Assembly: GCF_004346195.1 (NCBI RefSeq)
Contig: NZ_SMAK01000010.1
Location: 62,001 to 126,000, forward strand
DNA length: 64,000 nucleotides
DNA from: Tepidamorphus gemmatus
GTDB lineage: Bacteria > Pseudomonadota > Alphaproteobacteria > Rhizobiales > Tepidamorphaceae
Direction: 5' to 3'
The notes under the pieces: model-generated
The model's input: only the letters and a program-made list of their open reading frames with translations
The model's database searches: none
What the model was told of the DNA's origin: nothing
Translations under genes and position numbers: made by a program
Shown here: one piece after another, positions 33,670 to 41,745 of the stretch
Layout of the letters: every line of letters begins with the position of its first letter
Numbering within the stretch: position 1 is the stretch's first letter

Positions 33670-34590
33670 ATGGCCGGCGCCTGGACGGACTATCCGCGCG
33701 ACATGATCGGCTATGGACGGACGCCGCCGCACGCCGACTGGCCGGCCGGCGCCCGGCTCGCGGTGCAGTTCGTGATCAACTACGAGGAAGGCGGCGAGAA
33801 CTCGATCCTGCACGGCGATGCCGCCTCGGAGGCCTTCCTGTCGGAGATCGTCGGGGCAGTGCCGTGGCCAGGCCAGCGGCACATGAACATGGAATCGATC
33901 TACGAATACGGCTCGCGGGCCGGCTTCTGGCGGCTGTGGCGCATGTTCACCGCGCTCGGCCTGCCGGTGACGGTCTATGGCGTCGCCATGGCGCTTGCCC
34001 GCAATCCGGAGGCCGTCGCCGCCATGCGCGAGGCGGATTGGGAGATCGCCAGCCACGGCTACCGCTGGATCGACTACCGGGATGTCCCAGAGGACGAGGA
34101 GCGCCGGCATCTGGCGGAGGCGATCCGCCTCCACATCGAGACCACCGGCTCACGACCGCTCGGCTGGTATCTCGGCCGCTGTTCGTCGAACACGCGGCGG
34201 CTGGTGATGGAGGAGGGCGGCTTCCTCTACGACTCGGATTCCTATGCCGACGACCTGCCGTACTGGGTCGCCGGGCCGCACGGACCGCATCTGGTCATCC
34301 CCTACACGCTCGATGCCAATGACATGCGTTTCGCCACCGCGCAGGGATTCAATTCGGGCGACCAGTTCTTCGCCTATCTGAAGGACAGCTTCGACGTGCT
34401 GTACGCGGAGGGCGCGGACCGGCCGCGGATGATGTCGATCGGCCTGCATTGCCGGCTGGCCGGGCGGCCGGGCCGGGCGGCCGCGCTGGCGCGGTTCCTC
34501 GACCATGTGCTGCGCCACGAGGATGCCTGGGTCTGCCGACGCATCGACATCGCCCGCCACTGGCACGCGCGACACTTCCCGAAGGCGTGA
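33670..34590 (+). CDS. puuE: Allantoinase PuuE (polysaccharide-deacetylase fold)
   Basis: 306 residues. The opening DYPRDMIGYGRTPPHADWP and the stretch VQFVINYEEGGENSILHGDAASE are characteristic of the metal-independent allantoinase PuuE, which opens the allantoin ring in purine breakdown. The NodB-like core shows IASHGYRWIDY. No other ureide gene is in the window, so the pathway context is missing. It follows the YdcH-like gene by 14 bp. Confidence 0.9.
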   Translation: MAGAWTDYPRDMIGYGRTPPHADWPAGARLAVQFVINYEEGGENSILHGDAASEAFLSEIVGAVPWPGQRHMNMESIYEYGSRAGFWRLWRMFTALGLPVTVYGVAMALARNPEAVAAMREADWEIASHGYRWIDYRDVPEDEERRHLAEAIRLHIETTGSRPLGWYLGRCSSNTRRLVMEEGGFLYDSDSYADDLPYWVAGPHGPHLVIPYTLDANDMRFATAQGFNSGDQFFAYLKDSFDVLYAEGADRPRMMSIGLHCRLAGRPGRAAALARFLDHVLRHEDAWVCRRIDIARHWHARHFPKA

Positions 34591-35778: not shown

Positions 35779-37356
35779 TCACGCCTTGCCCGCCAGCGCC
35801 TTCGCCAGCAGGAAGCCCGACCCGGCGCCGGTACCGCCGCCCGGCCAGGTCGCGGCGCCGATCATGTAGAGCCGGTCGACCGGCGTCCGGTAGCGCGACC
35901 AGCCCGGTGCCGGGCGGAACAGGAAGTGCTGGTCGAGATGGTGGCTGCCCGACAGACTGTCGCCGCCAACGAGGTTCGGATTGTCGCGCTCGAGGTCGAG
36001 CGGCGACAGCACCGTGCGCGCGAGGACCTTCGCCGACGTTCCCGGCGCATAACGGTCGATGATGGCGACGACCCGGTCGGCATAGGCATCCTTCGCCGCG
36101 TCCCAGTCGTGCGCGGCGATCGCGCCGGCGGCATCGCCGCGGATCGCGGACGGCAGCACCCGCACCTGGACCCAGAGAATGTGCTTGCCGGCGGGCGCCC
36201 GGCTCGCGTCGATCGCGGTGGGCTGGCCGACGACCAGCAGCGGCTCGGCAGGCAACAGCCCCGCCATGGCCTGCTGGTATGTCGCCGCCATCATGTCGAG
36301 CGACGGCGCGAGATGGACATAGGCGAACCGCCTCAGCTCGGCGCCCGCCGTCCAGTCGGGGAGATCCGACATGGCGAGATGGATCATCATCGTCGCCGGT
36401 CCCGGCCGCAGCGCGGCAATCTTCCGCGCGGCCGGAGCGGCAGCACAGGGGCCCGACAGCAGACGGTCGAACAGGATGCGGGGATGCGTATTGGCAATCA
36501 CGGCGCGAGCGGCCGACAGCCGCCGGCCGTCGGCAAGCTCGACGCCGCGCGCCGTGCCCCCCTCGGCAAGGATCCGCACCACCTCCGAACCCGTCAGCAC
36601 CTCGCCGCCGAGCGCCTCGATGGACGTCGTCATCGCGCGGATGATGGTGTCGGCGCCGCCCCTGCCGAGCGCCATCCCGAAGGCCTGGTCGGCCATCGAC
36701 TCGAGATAGGGGAACAGCGCCCCGCCAGCCACATCCGGGGCATAGTCGAGATGCATGCCCCAGGCCCCGAGCATCGCCTTCACGCGCTCGTCCGAGAAGC
36801 GGGCATCCAGGAAGGCGCGGGTCGAGGAGGCGAGCAGCCGGCCGGTGTCGAGCAGCCAGCCGGTACCGTTCGCCCGCCAGGCCTTCCAGAGGATGCCGGC
36901 AAGCTCTCGGGAGGGCATCGGCGCCCCCAGCAGGGCGAAGATATGCGGGGCGTCACGGCCGAAATCGCCCATCATCCTCCGCCACGCCTCCGCGTCGGAT
37001 TGCGAGATCGCGGCGATACGGGCGAGATTCGTCTCGGCGTCCTGACTGACGCCGAGCCAGCTGCCGTCCGGAAAGGCGCTGGCGAAACAGTCGGTGGCAC
37101 CGACGAACTCGAGGCCCGCCTGAAGCAGCCTGTCCTTGTGCGCCTGGAAGAAGGGCGATCCCGCGAACAGCCCGAGATTCATCGCATAGAGGTCATGGCG
37201 GAAGCCTGGAAGCGTGATCTCCGCAGTCTTGACCGCCCCGCCCGCGACGCGGGCCCTCTCGACGACGGCGACGCGCCAGCCCTTCGAAGCCAGATGCACA
37301 GCGGCGGCAAGCCCGTTGTGACCCGCACCGACGATCACTGCGTCATAGCTCGTCAT
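35779..37356 (-). CDS. Phytoene-desaturase-like FAD oxidoreductase A
   Basis: 525-residue flavoprotein of the COG1233 (phytoene dehydrogenase-related) type. The N-terminal dinucleotide motif is VIVGAGHNGLAAAVHLASKG, followed by VVER. The C-terminal FAD motif is YMIGAATWPGGGTGAGSGF. The ATG at 37356 has GGGGA about 9 bases upstream and begins right before the FAD motif. No crt genes are near, so carotenoid synthesis is unlikely. It is divergent from the cyclase gene and is paralogous to the protein at 38620. Confidence 0.88.
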   Translation of the reverse strand: MTSYDAVIVGAGHNGLAAAVHLASKGWRVAVVERARVAGGAVKTAEITLPGFRHDLYAMNLGLFAGSPFFQAHKDRLLQAGLEFVGATDCFASAFPDGSWLGVSQDAETNLARIAAISQSDAEAWRRMMGDFGRDAPHIFALLGAPMPSRELAGILWKAWRANGTGWLLDTGRLLASSTRAFLDARFSDERVKAMLGAWGMHLDYAPDVAGGALFPYLESMADQAFGMALGRGGADTIIRAMTTSIEALGGEVLTGSEVVRILAEGGTARGVELADGRRLSAARAVIANTHPRILFDRLLSGPCAAAPAARKIAALRPGPATMMIHLAMSDLPDWTAGAELRRFAYVHLAPSLDMMAATYQQAMAGLLPAEPLLVVGQPTAIDASRAPAGKHILWVQVRVLPSAIRGDAAGAIAAHDWDAAKDAYADRVVAIIDRYAPGTSAKVLARTVLSPLDLERDNPNLVGGDSLSGSHHLDQHFLFRPAPGWSRYRTPVDRLYMIGAATWPGGGTGAGSGFLLAKALAGKA

Positions 37357-37677
37357 GTCCTGTTCCCCCGCGTCCAGCAGCGGATCGAAATTAGCCACAG
37401 ATGCATGGACCGGTCCATCGCCGACTGGCGAGCCGGTCCCGCCAGCGCCTTCGGCCGACCGGCCAAGCCGACCTGAATGAGGCTACAATTCCATGAAAAT
37501 GAACAGTTTTCTCTCCCGGATGACCATCCTTCCGTCTCCACAGGGGCGCTGTCTGAAGGTCAGATCAGCCCGTATCAATTACTTGCATTCCCATACGGCC
37601 CGGCTAGTCTGGCCTGACGGCAATGCCTGCGGCAGGACCTGCGGAGCCAGTCCGCACCACGTTGAGGGGAGATGACC
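37357..37677. promoter_or_regulatory. Divergent control region between oxidoreductase A and the cyclase gene
   Basis: About 320 bp without a gene. It contains the perfect 14-base palindrome ATGGACCGGTCCAT (37405-37418) and the inverted pair CCGTAT and ATACGG (37570-37575, 37593-37598). The second pair surrounds TTGCAT, which with TAGTCT 16 bases later (37605) could be the promoter of the cyclase transcript. The MarR-type protein encoded at 40219 is the obvious candidate binder, by inference. Confidence 0.45.
37405..37418. promoter_or_regulatory. 14-base palindrome, candidate operator
   Basis: ATGGACCGGTCCAT is perfectly symmetric and lies 49-62 bp before the start of oxidoreductase A. It is the size of a dimeric regulator site. 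No binding evidence exists in the sequence itself. Confidence 0.35.
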
Positions 37678-38469
37678 ATGAACGCTCAGGCCGTCCTGGC
37701 GGAACTCGCCAGCGCGCTGAAGTCCGGATCGATCGAGGTGGTCGACTTGACCGCGCCACTCGGACCCGACACGCCGTTGATCAAGCTGCCGCCGGAGATC
37801 GGCAAGAACACCCCGAAGGTCGAGATCCATGAGATCTCGAATTACGATCAGAATGGCCCGTTCTGGGCATGGAACTGGCTCAAGCTCGGCGAGCATTCCG
37901 GCACCCATTTCGATGCCCCGGTGCACTGGATCACCGGCCGCGATCATGCCGACGGCTATACCGACACGCTGCCGGCTCAGAACCTGGTGGCGCCCGCCTG
38001 CGTGATCGACTGCTCGAAGGAGGTCGCCGCCGATCCGGACTTCCTGCTGACCGCCGACCACGTCCGCGCCTGGGAGAAGGAACACGGCGAGATCCCGGCG
38101 CGCAGCTGGGTGCTGCTGCGCTCCGACTGGTACAAGCGCAACGGTTCCGAGGAGGCCTTCCTCAATGCCGACGAGACCGGTCCGCATTCGCCGGGCCCCA
38201 GCGTCGACTGCCTCGAATACATCCTGTCGAAGGACATCATCGGCTGGGGCAGCGAGACCGTCGGCACCGATGCCGGCCAGGCCGGCGGCATGAATCCACC
38301 GTTCCCGGCGCACAACCTCGTCCACAAGGCCGGCAAATACGGTCTCGCCAGCCTGTGCAATCTCGATCGACTGCCGCCGACCGGCGCCATCCTGATCACG
38401 CCGCCACTCAAGATCGTCAGGGGCACCGGCAGCCCGCTGCGCGTCCTCGCCCTCGTTGCGCGCGGCTGA
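37678..38469 (+). CDS. Metal-dependent cyclase / kynurenine-formamidase-like hydrolase
   Basis: 263-residue member of the cyclase family (PF04199). The metal and catalytic motif HSGTHFDAPVHW begins at residue 73, followed by DHVRAWEKEH and a C-terminal AHNLVHKAGKYGLASLCNLDRLPPTGA region. The family includes kynurenine formamidase, isatin hydrolase and polyketide cyclases. The ATG at 37678 is used because GAGGGGAG ends 6 bases upstream; the ATG at 37672 is too close to it. It heads the transcript cyclase-oxidoreductase B-MarR. Confidence 0.88.
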   Translation: MNAQAVLAELASALKSGSIEVVDLTAPLGPDTPLIKLPPEIGKNTPKVEIHEISNYDQNGPFWAWNWLKLGEHSGTHFDAPVHWITGRDHADGYTDTLPAQNLVAPACVIDCSKEVAADPDFLLTADHVRAWEKEHGEIPARSWVLLRSDWYKRNGSEEAFLNADETGPHSPGPSVDCLEYILSKDIIGWGSETVGTDAGQAGGMNPPFPAHNLVHKAGKYGLASLCNLDRLPPTGAILITPPLKIVRGTGSPLRVLALVARG

Positions 38470-38619
38470 AACGGACACCGGTCATGGGCTCCGGCACGCT
38501 CGTCGTCCGCCCGGCCCTGCGATCCCGGATCGGCCGCCGGCCGTCCGCAATGGCGCAGGCGCGCGAGGGGGAACGGTGCGTCGTCCGGCGGCCCGGACGA
38601 GAACGAGGGGGAGCCGCCG

Positions 38620-40200
38620 ATGGCTGATACCGACTACGTCATCGTCGGCAGCGGCATCAACGCGCTGGTCGCGGCGGCGCTGCTGAGCCGGCGCGGCAAC
38701 CGCGTCGTCGTGCTCGAGCGCAGCGACCGCCTCGGCGGTTGCATGATGACCGCGGAAGTGACCGTTCCTGGCTTCCGCCACGACGTGATGGCGGCAACCT
38801 TCGTGCTGTTCGTGCTTTCTCCGGCCTATGCCGAGCTGGGGCCCGATCTCGCCAGGCACGGTCTGTCCTTCGCCCACACCGATACGCCGACAGGCGTCGT
38901 GATGCCGGATGGCGACGCATTGGTGCTGCGGATGGACCGCGCAGCGAATGTCGCGGCCTTCGAGGCGCTCGCGCCGGGCGACGGAACCCGATTTGCCGCC
39001 GACATGGATCGGCTCGGGGCAGATGCACCGTTCCTCTTCGCCCTTCTCGGCGGCGCGCTGTGGTCCTGGAGTACCGCCAGGGCGGTCGCCCGCGAGACGT
39101 GGCGGCGCGGCCCGCGCGGCCTCGCCGCCTTCTTCGGCGAGGCGCTGGAAACGGCGCGGGGCTGGCTCGAGCAGGGCTACCGATCAGAGCGGTTCCATGC
39201 GCTGATGGCACCCTGGGTACTGCATTGCGGGCTGGGCCCGGAGGCAGCGTATTCCGGCCAGATGGCCCGTGTCGTCGCCTTTGCGCTGGAGGCGGCCGGA
39301 GCGCCGGTCGCGAAGGGCGGGGCGGGCGCCGTACCAGCCGCGTTCGCCTCGCTGATTGCGGCGAATGGCGGCATCTGCCGCACAGGCGCCGACGTGGTGG
39401 AGATCCTGCTCGACGGCGCCGGCGACGCGCGCGGCGTGCGGCTGGCCGACGGCGGCGAGATCCTCGCCGCGCGCGGCGTGATCTGCTCGGTCACGCCGAC
39501 GCAGCTCTACGGGCGGCTGCTGCCGCCGGACAGCGTCCCCGCCGGGATCGCCGCGTCGGTTGCCGGCTATCGCTACGGCAAGGGCGACATGCAGATCCAC
39601 TATGCGCTCGATGCGCCGCCGCGCTGGACGACACCGGGGCTCGAATCGGTGGCACTGCTGCATCTCACGCCGGGTCTCGACGGCGTTTCCAAGGCGGCCA
39701 ACGAGGCCGAGCGCGGCATGATCCCGGAGGTGCCGACGATCTGCGTCGGCCAGCCCTCGGCGCTGGATCCGTCCCGCTGCCCGCCGGGCAAGGCCGTCTT
39801 GTGGGTGCAGTTGCCGGAGGTGCCGCGGCATGTGAAGGGCGATGCGGCGGGCGCATTCGCCATCCCCGCCGACGGGCGCTGGACGGAGGCGCTGCGCGAG
39901 GCGTATGCCGACCGGGTCGAGGCGATCCTGGCGCGCCATATCGAGAACTTCGCGGCGATCCGGCTCGCCCGGCGAGTCTATTCGCCGGCCGATCTCGAGG
40001 CGCTGAACGTCAACCTGGTCGGTGGCGATCCCTATGGCGGCTATTGCGGTCTCGACCAGTTCTTCCTGTGGCGGCCGTTCAAGGGCTCGCGCAACCATTC
40101 CACTCACGTCGGACGGTTGTATCATATCGGCGCATCCACCCATCCCGGCCCCGGGCTCGGCGGCGGGTCGGGCTATCTGCTGGCCAAATCGCTCGGCTGA
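38620..40200 (+). CDS. Phytoene-desaturase-like FAD oxidoreductase B
   Basis: 526 residues, paralogous along its whole length to oxidoreductase A. The dinucleotide motif is VIVGSGINALVAAALLSRRG, then VVLERS. The C-terminal FAD motif is YHIGASTHPGPGLGGGSGY. GGGGGAG lies 7 bases before the ATG. Conserved blocks shared with A include TICVGQPSALDPSRCPPGK and VNLVGGDPYGG. Being next to a cyclase/formamidase and a MarR regulator, it probably acts in breakdown of a small cyclic compound; the substrate is unknown. Confidence 0.88.
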   Translation: MADTDYVIVGSGINALVAAALLSRRGNRVVVLERSDRLGGCMMTAEVTVPGFRHDVMAATFVLFVLSPAYAELGPDLARHGLSFAHTDTPTGVVMPDGDALVLRMDRAANVAAFEALAPGDGTRFAADMDRLGADAPFLFALLGGALWSWSTARAVARETWRRGPRGLAAFFGEALETARGWLEQGYRSERFHALMAPWVLHCGLGPEAAYSGQMARVVAFALEAAGAPVAKGGAGAVPAAFASLIAANGGICRTGADVVEILLDGAGDARGVRLADGGEILAARGVICSVTPTQLYGRLLPPDSVPAGIAASVAGYRYGKGDMQIHYALDAPPRWTTPGLESVALLHLTPGLDGVSKAANEAERGMIPEVPTICVGQPSALDPSRCPPGKAVLWVQLPEVPRHVKGDAAGAFAIPADGRWTEALREAYADRVEAILARHIENFAAIRLARRVYSPADLEALNVNLVGGDPYGGYCGLDQFFLWRPFKGSRNHSTHVGRLYHIGASTHPGPGLGGGSGYLLAKSLG

Positions 40201-40218
40201 CGCCGGCGCGGAGACACC

Positions 40219-40728
40219 ATGACCGAGGGGCCGTTCCTGACCGCCATCCTGTCGCGCGATCCGCGCGGTCCGGACTCGATTCCCTCGATGGGCGAGATCG
40301 GCCTCAATCACTTCGCGCCCTACCTCATGAACCGCATCATGGCGCGGTGGAACGCCGACCTCGCCGAGGCGCTGAAGGCCTACGACATGACCACCACCCG
40401 CATGCGCGTGCTGGCGGTGCTGAGCATCAGTTCGGGCATGACGGTGAACGAGCTGGCAGTGTTCACCGTGACCGAGCAGTCGACGATGAGCCGAACGCTC
40501 GACGCCATGGAGGAACAGGGGCTGATCCGCCGCCAGGCCCGACCCGACGACATGCGTGTGCGCGAGGTGCACATCACCGATGCTGGCCGCAGCGCCTTCG
40601 AGGAGGTCTGGCCGATGATGTACGAACAGTATGTCAAGATGTTCGCGGGCATCGGCACCGACGAGTTCCAGGCCTTCATCGGGACGCTGCACAAGGTTCT
40701 CGCCAACATCCGCCGGCACGGCATCTGA
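40219..40728 (+). CDS. MarR-family transcriptional regulator
   Basis: 169 residues. The winged-helix core is visible from MRVLAVLSISSGMTVNELAVFTVTEQSTMSRTLDAMEEQGLIRR (recognition helix) to RPDDMRVREVHITDAGR (wing). MarR proteins are usually dimeric repressors released by small aromatic ligands. It is 18 bp downstream of oxidoreductase B and so probably controls this module, perhaps through the palindromes between 37405 and 37598. Confidence 0.93.
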   Translation: MTEGPFLTAILSRDPRGPDSIPSMGEIGLNHFAPYLMNRIMARWNADLAEALKAYDMTTTRMRVLAVLSISSGMTVNELAVFTVTEQSTMSRTLDAMEEQGLIRRQARPDDMRVREVHITDAGRSAFEEVWPMMYEQYVKMFAGIGTDEFQAFIGTLHKVLANIRRHGI

Positions 40729-40821: not shown

Positions 40822-41745
40822 CTATCCCGACGGTTCGGGAAGCGGGATGAACTCGCTGTCACCGGGGACCGGCTTGAAGCGGCCGGTCTTCCAGGCCTGC
40901 TTCGCCTCCTCGATGCGCTCCCTGCGCGAGGAGACGAAGTTCCACCAGATGTGGCGCGGGCCATCCGCCGCCGCCCCGCCGAGGAACAGCATCCGTGCCC
41001 GGTCCGCCGCCTTGACGGTGATCCGGTCGCCGGGCCGGAAGATCAGCAGGCGCGGACCCTCGAAGCGGTCCCCGGCGATCTCCACCGTGCCCTCGACCAC
41101 GTAGATCGCCCGCTCCTCGTGGTCGGCGTCCAGTGGGGCCGATGCGCCGGCCGCCAGCACCACCTCGACATAGAACCAGTCCGACAGCCGGGCGACCGGC
41201 GCGGTAGCGCCGAAGGCAGAGCCGGCGATCACCCGCGCGCTGACGCCACGGTCCTCGACGAGCGGCAGCACGGAGGCGGCAAAATGCTGGAACGAGGGAT
41301 CGGTCTCCTCGTGCGCCTCGGGCAGCGCGATCCAGCTCTGGATGCCGTGCATCGCCCCACCGTCGCGGCGCACATCGCCGGGCGTCCGCTCAGAATGGGC
41401 GATGCCGCGCCCGGCCGTCATCAGGTTCATGGCGCCCGGCGTGATCTCCACCTCGTTGCCCTCGCTGTCGCGATGCATCACCCGGCCGTCGAACAGATAG
41501 GTAACGGTGGCAAGCCCGATATGCGGATGCGGCCGCACATCCATGCCCCGGCCACCAACGAACTGCACCGGCCCCATCTGGTCGAAGAAGATGAACGGCC
41601 CGACCATCTGCCGCCGCCCATGCGGCAGCGCCCGGCGCACAGCGAAGCCGCCGAGATCGCGGGCGCGCGGCACGATGACGAGATCGAGCGCCTCGCAGGA
41701 GCGCGGATCGCCGAGGACGGGGTCTTTCGAGGGAAGCCAGGACAT
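40822..41745 (-). CDS. Pirin-family protein
   Basis: 307-residue bicupin. The N-terminal cupin carries the pirin metal signature DVRPHPHIGLATVTYLFDG followed by HRDSEG, and the later AGRGIAHSERTP. Bacterial pirins bind iron and some act as quercetinases; this protein's activity is not known. It is convergent with the MarR gene and followed on the same strand by nothing closely linked. Confidence 0.92.
   Translation of the reverse strand: MSWLPSKDPVLGDPRSCEALDLVIVPRARDLGGFAVRRALPHGRRQMVGPFIFFDQMGPVQFVGGRGMDVRPHPHIGLATVTYLFDGRVMHRDSEGNEVEITPGAMNLMTAGRGIAHSERTPGDVRRDGGAMHGIQSWIALPEAHEETDPSFQHFAASVLPLVEDRGVSARVIAGSAFGATAPVARLSDWFYVEVVLAAGASAPLDADHEERAIYVVEGTVEIAGDRFEGPRLLIFRPGDRITVKAADRARMLFLGGAAADGPRHIWWNFVSSRRERIEEAKQAWKTGRFKPVPGDSEFIPLPEPSG

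Follow-up and report, generated by a model that had tools for sequence, protein, structure and literature searches.

Four genes lying side by side in the genome of Tepidamorphus gemmatus, encoding two paralogous flavoproteins (A and B), a cyclase and a MarR-family regulator, raise the question of which compound such a set of proteins handles. The stretch of DNA analyzed (the window, 64,000 nucleotides) covers positions 62001-126000 of contig C10 in a genome of 3.78 Mb assembled in 32 contigs. The cyclase has the features of an isatin hydrolase, and the window probably holds (with a probability of about 0.6) half of a pathway, divided between two loci, in which indole-type compounds are processed via isatin, an oxidized indole; the other half would be an IorAB-like pair and an Opp-type importer on contig C7. 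The isatin step is well supported, and the substrates suggested below for A, B, IorAB and the importer are putative.

The initial annotation, made from the sequence, had placed four genes here, and their open reading frames were confirmed. The features of the locus are as follows.

35779-37356, minus strand: flavoprotein A (P0001), a COG1233/CrtO-like FAD oxidoreductase, 525 residues from the ATG, 539 residues if an upstream GTG is used
37357-37671, no strand: promoter region from which A and the hydrolase diverge; the A(-)/hydrolase(+) arrangement is common to 41 sequences, the window included
37580-37597, no strand: TACTTGCATTCCCATACG, a candidate operator for MarR that matches TATnTGCAnnTGCAnATA weakly
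37672-38469, plus strand: cyclase of the isatin-hydrolase type (P0002), 265 residues, with HSGTHFDAP
38620-40200, plus strand: flavoprotein B (P0003), 526 residues, a COG1233/CrtO-like FAD oxidoreductase
40219-40728, plus strand: MarR-family regulator (P0004), 169 residues

The spacing is 150 nucleotides between the cyclase and B and 18 nucleotides between B and the MarR gene.

The cyclase as a probable isatin hydrolase

The closest PDB match of the cyclase was 4j0n (E value 1.2e-127), the isatin hydrolase B from Labrenzia, and the next solved relatives were three more isatin-hydrolase sequences. According to the available part of PMC6117287, isatin hydrolases are recognized by the metal motif HxG[T/A]HxDxPxH together with a GLQC or GLAS motif, the aromatic pocket of the Labrenzia enzyme (LaIHB) is formed by Phe63, Trp65, Trp84 and Phe209, and kynurenine formamidase (KynB) carries the motif I(L/I)E at the GLAS position. 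The window cyclase contains HSGTHFDAPVH, GLAS (A226-S227) and the pocket residues W65, W67, W86 and F211, and differs from LaIHB in having tryptophan at the Phe63 position. Full-length sequence, the Mn-site motif, GLAS and the aromatic pocket are shared with the isatin hydrolases of Labrenzia aggregata (IHB and IHA) and Ralstonia (IHA). The metal motif was present in all 55 hydrolases of at least 58 % identity (those of the loci described below and that of the window), 54 of which had GLAS and one (locus L029) GLQC. Judged from its sequence, the conversion of isatin to isatinate by the cyclase is well supported.

Among the substrates suggested in the initial annotation isatin is now the leading one for the cyclase, on the grounds of the 4j0n match, the motifs and the pocket, and formylkynurenine has become a weaker candidate, since the protein lacks the motif of kynurenine formamidases. 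The cyclase does fall into PF04199, a family that also includes kynurenine formamidases, but with GLAS in place of the KynB motif and with isatin hydrolases as its closest solved relatives it is very improbable that it is a kynurenine formamidase and that the module belongs to the kynurenine route; this identity was rejected on the motif.

Conservation of the gene set

When B was used as a query against plasmid records, the same layout, A(-), cyclase(+), B(+) and MarR(+), came to light in Tritonibacter mobilis, where IorA and IorB follow MarR and an Opp-type ABC importer lies beside A. The scan of genome contigs with B yielded 61 loci, and addition of six plasmid loci gave a set of 67, in 64 of which B was present at at least 55 % identity (partly by construction). 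The 52 loci of at least 19 kb contained B in 51 cases, A in 44, the hydrolase in 45, MarR in 41, and IorA and the importer binding protein in 42 each. All four genes of the window were found in 39 of these long loci, and the four genes together with IorA and the binding protein in 37. The set is also carried by locus L047 of the nodule bacterium Rhizobium tropici. The initial annotation would have been refuted if the genes were not neighbors in related genomes, but these 39 loci keep them together, and its idea of a co-conserved module for oxidation and ring opening is supported by them and by the isatin-hydrolase type of the cyclase. It was right about the module and missed the IorAB pair and the Opp-type importer on the other contig as well as the operator-like palindrome shared by both loci.

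Of the 397 order genomes, 33 contained B, and so did 4 of the 385 genomes in the class sample, the source genome being counted in both. An A-like gene was located within about 3 kb of B in 31 of the 33 order genomes, and one adjoined B in each of the four from the class sample; in the two exceptions (G586 and G689) B itself was only a partial match, covering residues 217-525. Among 121 order genomes (the first of the order, apparently included in the 397) B and a hydrolase of at least 68 % identity occurred in the same 10, and four others had only homologues of 55-59 %. Another 26 B genomes all had the hydrolase except G689 with its partial B, so that overall it followed B in 35 of 36 genomes. 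Ten loci had B and no adjacent hydrolase; all seven of these tested genome-wide had one elsewhere, two at 69 % and five at 52-60 % identity. A literature search, with subscription papers largely outside its reach, found no published account of this conserved flavoprotein, hydrolase and MarR set and no work linking phytoene desaturase with isatin.

The second locus: IorAB and importer

In the source genome IorA, 67 % identical to that of Tritonibacter, is encoded on contig C7 with IorB beside it.

L105:9312-13050 (contig C7): IorAB pair, homologous to the iad-type IorAB (IadAB)

Divergent from this pair is an importer with an SBP_bac_5 binding protein and, as read by eye in L105, genes for two permease-like proteins and one ATPase-like protein. 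IorA did not reach the cut-off of the indolepyruvate oxidoreductase alpha equivalog TIGR03336 (287.3 versus 650.9), and IorB passed that of the subfamily model NF006179 (704.1 versus 348). IorA was situated within about 10 kb of B in 32 of 36 B genomes, the exceptions being the source genome, G085 (where some 500 kb separate IorAB and the importer from the A/B locus), G100 and G563.

The association over whole genomes was strong. IorA at at least 65 % identity was present in all 36 B genomes and in 9 of 42 B-negative ones (8 without one fragment; Fisher 7e-14), and the importer binding protein in 35 of the 36 and 4 of the 42 (Fisher 3e-16). The B-negative genomes were hand-picked from the first sample, leaning to weaker hydrolase matches, and do not constitute a random set; the Fisher values ignore kinship among genomes.

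The MarR regulator and a shared palindrome

The regulator passed the cut-offs of the MarR domains PF12802 (48.4 bits) and PF01047 (47.2 bits). Its nearest solved relatives were 3cjn and then 7KYM, the latter belonging to the auxin-MarR structure set in the available part of PMC9613470, and this relationship in sequence fits an indole-type ligand.

An expectation-maximization search for palindromes was run on 18 A/hydrolase gaps hand-picked from the 41 to lower similarity. It gave the 18-bp TATnTGCAnnTGCAnATA with a log-likelihood of 117, compared with 27-31 in six shuffles. The matrix was built from 16 of these gaps, the window and all IorA gaps being excluded, and matched in each of 36 divergent IorA/importer gaps at p<0.05 versus 300 mononucleotide shuffles of the gap. 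Only divergent gaps of less than 900 bases entered this test and many of the 36 come from close Rhizobium relatives. Examples of these palindromes are TATATGCATATGCATAAA and TATATGCATTTGCATATT. The sites were also present where the two loci are separate, i.e. in the source genome (L105:9206, AATATGGAATTGCATTTA) and in G085 (L112:9152). From sequence comparison, joint regulation of both promoters across the family is well supported.

Other sites of this kind were seen. Downstream of IorAB on contig C7, matches with the TGCA palindrome at L105 15431 and 18567 lie beside another MarR gene, near genes for a thioesterase, an MFS transporter and a protein like FAA hydrolase (just below the cut-off). 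The operator-like matches at L106 10979 and 8471 on contig C5 have no TGCA core, probably belong to another regulator and were not counted. A search for near-perfect palindromes returned, in the window gap, just ATGGACCGGTCCAT, which did not appear for the other gaps.

Gene company of B in other organisms

The gene order in Azospirillum thermophilum is AraC, SDR, styrene/indole monooxygenase, flavin reductase, a 'transporter', B and hydrolase, the 'transporter' being a MetA-pathway channel (PF13557). In the iif/WHOP pathway, according to the portions available of PMC12538310 and PMC6221969, the monooxygenase and reductase form indole-2,3-dihydrodiol, the SDR converts it to 3-hydroxyindolin-2-one (dioxindole) and IifA takes dioxindole to anthranilate, in the company of a MetA-type channel and an AraC regulator. 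The loci of some relatives thus share with the iif/WHOP clusters of Acinetobacter, Pseudomonas and Burkholderia the styrene/indole monooxygenase, flavin reductase, SDR, AraC and MetA-type channel, whereas the contiguous Azospirillum stretch has no IifA-like gene among those listed and holds B and the hydrolase where IifA would stand. Monooxygenase genes were also noted in L033, L041, L077, L085 and L089, which makes 6 of the 52 long loci overall; in tblastn the Azospirillum query matched at 61 % in L033 and 59 % in L041. PF16155 (now PnbB), taken as a putative stand-in for IifA, matched in 1 of 11 genomes and was not used as evidence.

A plasmid of the actinomycete Tsukamurella encodes an SDR (52 % identical to that of Azospirillum), an FMO-type monooxygenase (PF00743), a B-like protein (42.5 %), IorB, IorA (60 %) and a hydrolase (51 %) with HIGTHVDAPCH and GLTS instead of GLAS. 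In loci lacking A, B and the hydrolase can thus be accompanied by an indole monooxygenase and a dehydrogenase or, in Tsukamurella, by an FMO-type monooxygenase. The simplest reading of the gene company in Azospirillum and Tsukamurella is that B converts dioxindole to isatin, and B is accordingly proposed as a putative dioxindole oxidase or dehydrogenase.

Flavoproteins A and B

That A and B are paralogous, as first annotated, was confirmed by 41 % identity across 527 alignment columns. The Pfam families matched by both were Amino_oxidase and NAD_binding_8; among the NCBIfam models CrtO and the CrtI family came closest, every cut-off shown being missed: A and B scored 201.1 and 154 bits versus 1000 for CrtO, and 132.2 and 84.5 bits versus 238.1 for crtI_fam. 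AlphaFold2 models had a mean pLDDT (predicted local distance difference test) of 86.1 for B (22 alignment rows) and 85.5 for A (18 rows), with low-quality stretches at about residues 466-485 and 504-512. Foldseek placed gamma-carotenoid desaturase (4rep) and CrtI (4dgk) at the top for both, followed by nicotine oxidoreductase NicA2 and other amine oxidases, ahead of which a Methanosarcina oxidoreductase ranked for A. Therefore the modeled fold is of the desaturase/amine-oxidase kind and names no substrate.

Family and predicted fold are thus shared with the CrtO/CrtI-type (COG1233) flavoproteins, and the top models and folds are those of carotenoid enzymes; yet the scores lie far under the curated cut-offs, the neighbors belong to indole-type catabolism, and no carotenoid-annotated gene was seen around the module in Tritonibacter, Alloyangia and Sulfitobacter. 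A carotenoid role was rejected on cut-offs and neighboring genes, and it would be very surprising indeed if it were the true one. The earlier remark that no crt genes lie nearby stood in so far as a PF01593 search of contig C10 returned A and B only, carotenoid genes as such having not been searched for; this broad family had five better-scoring matches on contigs C14, C5 and C7.

In a tree with a reduced number of A and B rows and without the first, FMO-like flavoprotein of Tsukamurella, A and B formed separate clades (midpoint rooting, the root falling on two remote paralogues from the source genome). The proteins of Tsukamurella and Brachybacterium were placed on the side of B, and those of Dietzia and haloarchaea on that of A. 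By their sequences A and B are thus old paralogues that did not originate from a recent duplication.

The initial annotation had suggested that the two act as a heterodimer or on successive intermediates. A adjoins B in the 31 of 33 genomes mentioned, as a heterodimer would lead one to expect, but in the stretch examined B and the hydrolase were found without A in six loci (L029, L041, L043, L059, L063 and L108), A-like genes without adjacent B in L116 and L119, and in the window A and B are on separate transcripts. A constant A-B pair is unlikely because B occurs without A; the obligate heterodimer was rejected for this reason, its probability being very low. Action on successive intermediates is possible.

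Several further loci with A- or B-like genes were noted. On the source contig C5 (L107 7208-10570) a class-III aminotransferase gene is followed by two COG1233-type flavoprotein genes in tandem, whose products share about 30 % identity with A. In L126 6892-8829 (G626, contig C1 76901-78451) the A gene has an in-frame TAG, and the hydrolase, B, MarR, IorAB and importer genes are open frames. On a Dietzia plasmid (L118 6591-9262) an IS481 transposase splits a B-like gene that lies close to an A-like one, and the haloarchaeal plasmids of L120, L122 and L124 encode A-like proteins (45-48 %) with no annotated module genes around.

Other neighboring genes in the window

Upstream of the module (window 33670-34590) lies a gene for allantoinase PuuE (TIGR03212, 554.5 bits versus a cut-off of 424.6), and immediately after MarR, on the opposite strand (window 40822-41745, minus), a pirin gene. 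Neither had a match of at least 33 % identity in the 67 other loci scanned.

Proposed pathway and alternatives

In the proposed pathway the Opp-type importer beside IorAB would take up another oxindole-type compound, which A would prepare; this is the least secure of the steps. B would oxidize dioxindole to isatin directly before the hydrolase, which would open isatin to isatinate, and IorAB would convert isatinate (2-aminophenylglyoxylate) and CoA to 2-aminobenzoyl-CoA. MarR would repress the A/hydrolase and the IorA/importer promoters via the TATnTGCAnnTGCAnATA palindrome until an indole-type ligand binds. A salicylyl-CoA-5-hydroxylase-type enzyme encoded on contig C5 could take 2-aminobenzoyl-CoA further.

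The C5 cluster (L106 8517-15202) comprises genes for a salicylyl-CoA 5-hydroxylase/oxidoreductase, an SDR-like and a MarR-like protein, an acyl-CoA dehydrogenase and a member of the benzoate-CoA-ligase family; upstream of it a Peripla_BP_4 binding protein is encoded. The fused hydroxylase/oxidoreductase scored 1129 bits (cut-off 1078) and has an architecture that we take to be that of 2-aminobenzoyl-CoA monooxygenase/reductase; the benzoate-CoA-ligase-family protein scored 385.4 (cut-off 375.25).

The lower half of this route appears to be shared with auxin degradation. In iad loci, as described in the part of PMC9613470 available, indole-3-acetic acid is degraded through isatin to anthranilate and IorAB homologues are carried. 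L109, L110 and L111, three loci that lack both A and B, contain IorA (65-66 %) and IorB (52-53 %) as well as genes for a Rieske oxygenase and CoA-ligase-like proteins; a 55 % hydrolase is found in L109, G106 has one at the start of L111, which gene calling had overlooked, and G112 has one about 27 kb off. By gene content these look like iad auxin loci, so the hydrolase and IorAB seem to be a common pathway end with differing upper halves. The iad systems of Variovorax and Bradyrhizobium share with the module the isatin intermediate, IorAB (IadAB) and MarR (PMC9613470, same part), whereas the conserved set of the module has A, B and the Opp-type importer and shows no Rieske oxygenase (IadDE), for which no genome-wide search of the source genome was made.

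The module could also be a side branch of auxin catabolism, in which the importer takes up a plant auxin product, e.g., 2-oxindole-3-acetic acid or its conjugates, A desaturates or oxidizes them, the side chain is lost, B completes isatin, and the hydrolase and IorAB finish the route. The occurrence of the second-best solved relative of MarR in the auxin-MarR set, the IorAB and hydrolase common to iad-like loci, the many matches that are rhizobia by name and the suitability of desaturase-related COG1233 proteins for C-C dehydrogenation all favor it. It is nevertheless unlikely, though far from negligible: the conserved set has no Rieske oxygenase, CoA ligase and thiolase being outside that query set, the same set is present in marine Tritonibacter and Sulfitobacter, and IadK2 is another class of binding protein than the Opp-type one here. 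Alternatively, A and B might serve an amino-acid or other heterocycle pathway, with the hydrolase recruited beside them by related inducers. In L031, L049 and L060, A, B and the importer are accompanied by genes of the proline/hydroxyproline or DAO type and the hydrolase is not adjacent, and in Mesorhizobium loti an A homologue, next to an importer and surrounded by xanthine-dehydrogenase-type genes, is separated from B by about 13 kb. The L049 and L060 genomes, however, still carry a 69 % hydrolase, and the hydrolase follows B almost throughout, as counted above, which leaves this explanation rather improbable.

Several observations weigh against the pathway via isatin proposed here. The substrates of A and B are not given by sequence alone, and the activities of both are predicted. 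A, B and the importer of L031, L049 and L060 lie among amino-acid-type genes with no adjacent hydrolase or IorAB, so A and B may have wider substrates or roles. The hydrolases of 52-60 % found elsewhere may be auxin-type homologues, and the seven-of-seven result is therefore weaker than it appears. Some IorA homologue at 1e-60 was present in 12 of the 42 B-negative genomes (Fisher 3e-12), and IorAB is therefore not private to this route. The Variovorax iadC-K2 region gave anthranilic acid without iadAB (PMC12633357, available part), so IadAB-type enzymes are dispensable for anthranilate there. The relatives of the importer (dipeptide, heme and opine binding) leave its ligand unnamed. L059 and L063 have importer genes and no A within the locus; A is therefore not strictly tied to the importer, and the idea that it always is was dropped. 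The A/hydrolase gap of L085, one of the 18 searched, shows no site. The window site at 37580 is the best in 64 kb but weak (7.6 versus 7.3 for the next), with p 0.015 versus gap shuffles, 0.05 being reached in 2 of 19 other window gaps as well; so, next to the good support from the 36 IorA/importer gaps of the family, joint regulation via the window's own A/hydrolase promoter is only suggestive. With a second MarR gene and similar sites nearby on contig C7, either MarR protein may act there. Finally, the source genome had no match to the Azospirillum styrene/indole monooxygenase in a search run without positive control. The source organism would therefore obtain its oxindole-type substrate otherwise, perhaps via the importer and A, which would feed the isatin step in spite of this result.

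Implications

Relative to the known isatin pathways, iad and iif, the two COG1233 flavoproteins are the new element. The wider proposal is tentative and, in our estimate, stands at somewhat less than even odds: A and B would represent a new COG1233 catalytic class that uses dioxindole or other oxindoles to make isatin and takes the place of the cofactor-independent oxygenase IifA. Together with the hydrolase and IorAB, and as part of a single MarR regulon, they would lead indole-type compounds directly to 2-aminobenzoyl-CoA without free anthranilate, a route spread across Alphaproteobacteria and found, in combination with another monooxygenase, in at least one actinomycete.

For the steps before and after isatin, candidate genes that are linked over many genomes can now be named, and an IorAB-like pair is tied to the isatin step instead of indolepyruvate. 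For poorly annotated flavoproteins, usually labeled 'NAD(P)/FAD-dependent oxidoreductase' or 'phytoene desaturase', this provides a concrete prediction: A and B are good candidates for the missing isatin-making step through which indole-type compounds may enter ordinary metabolism.

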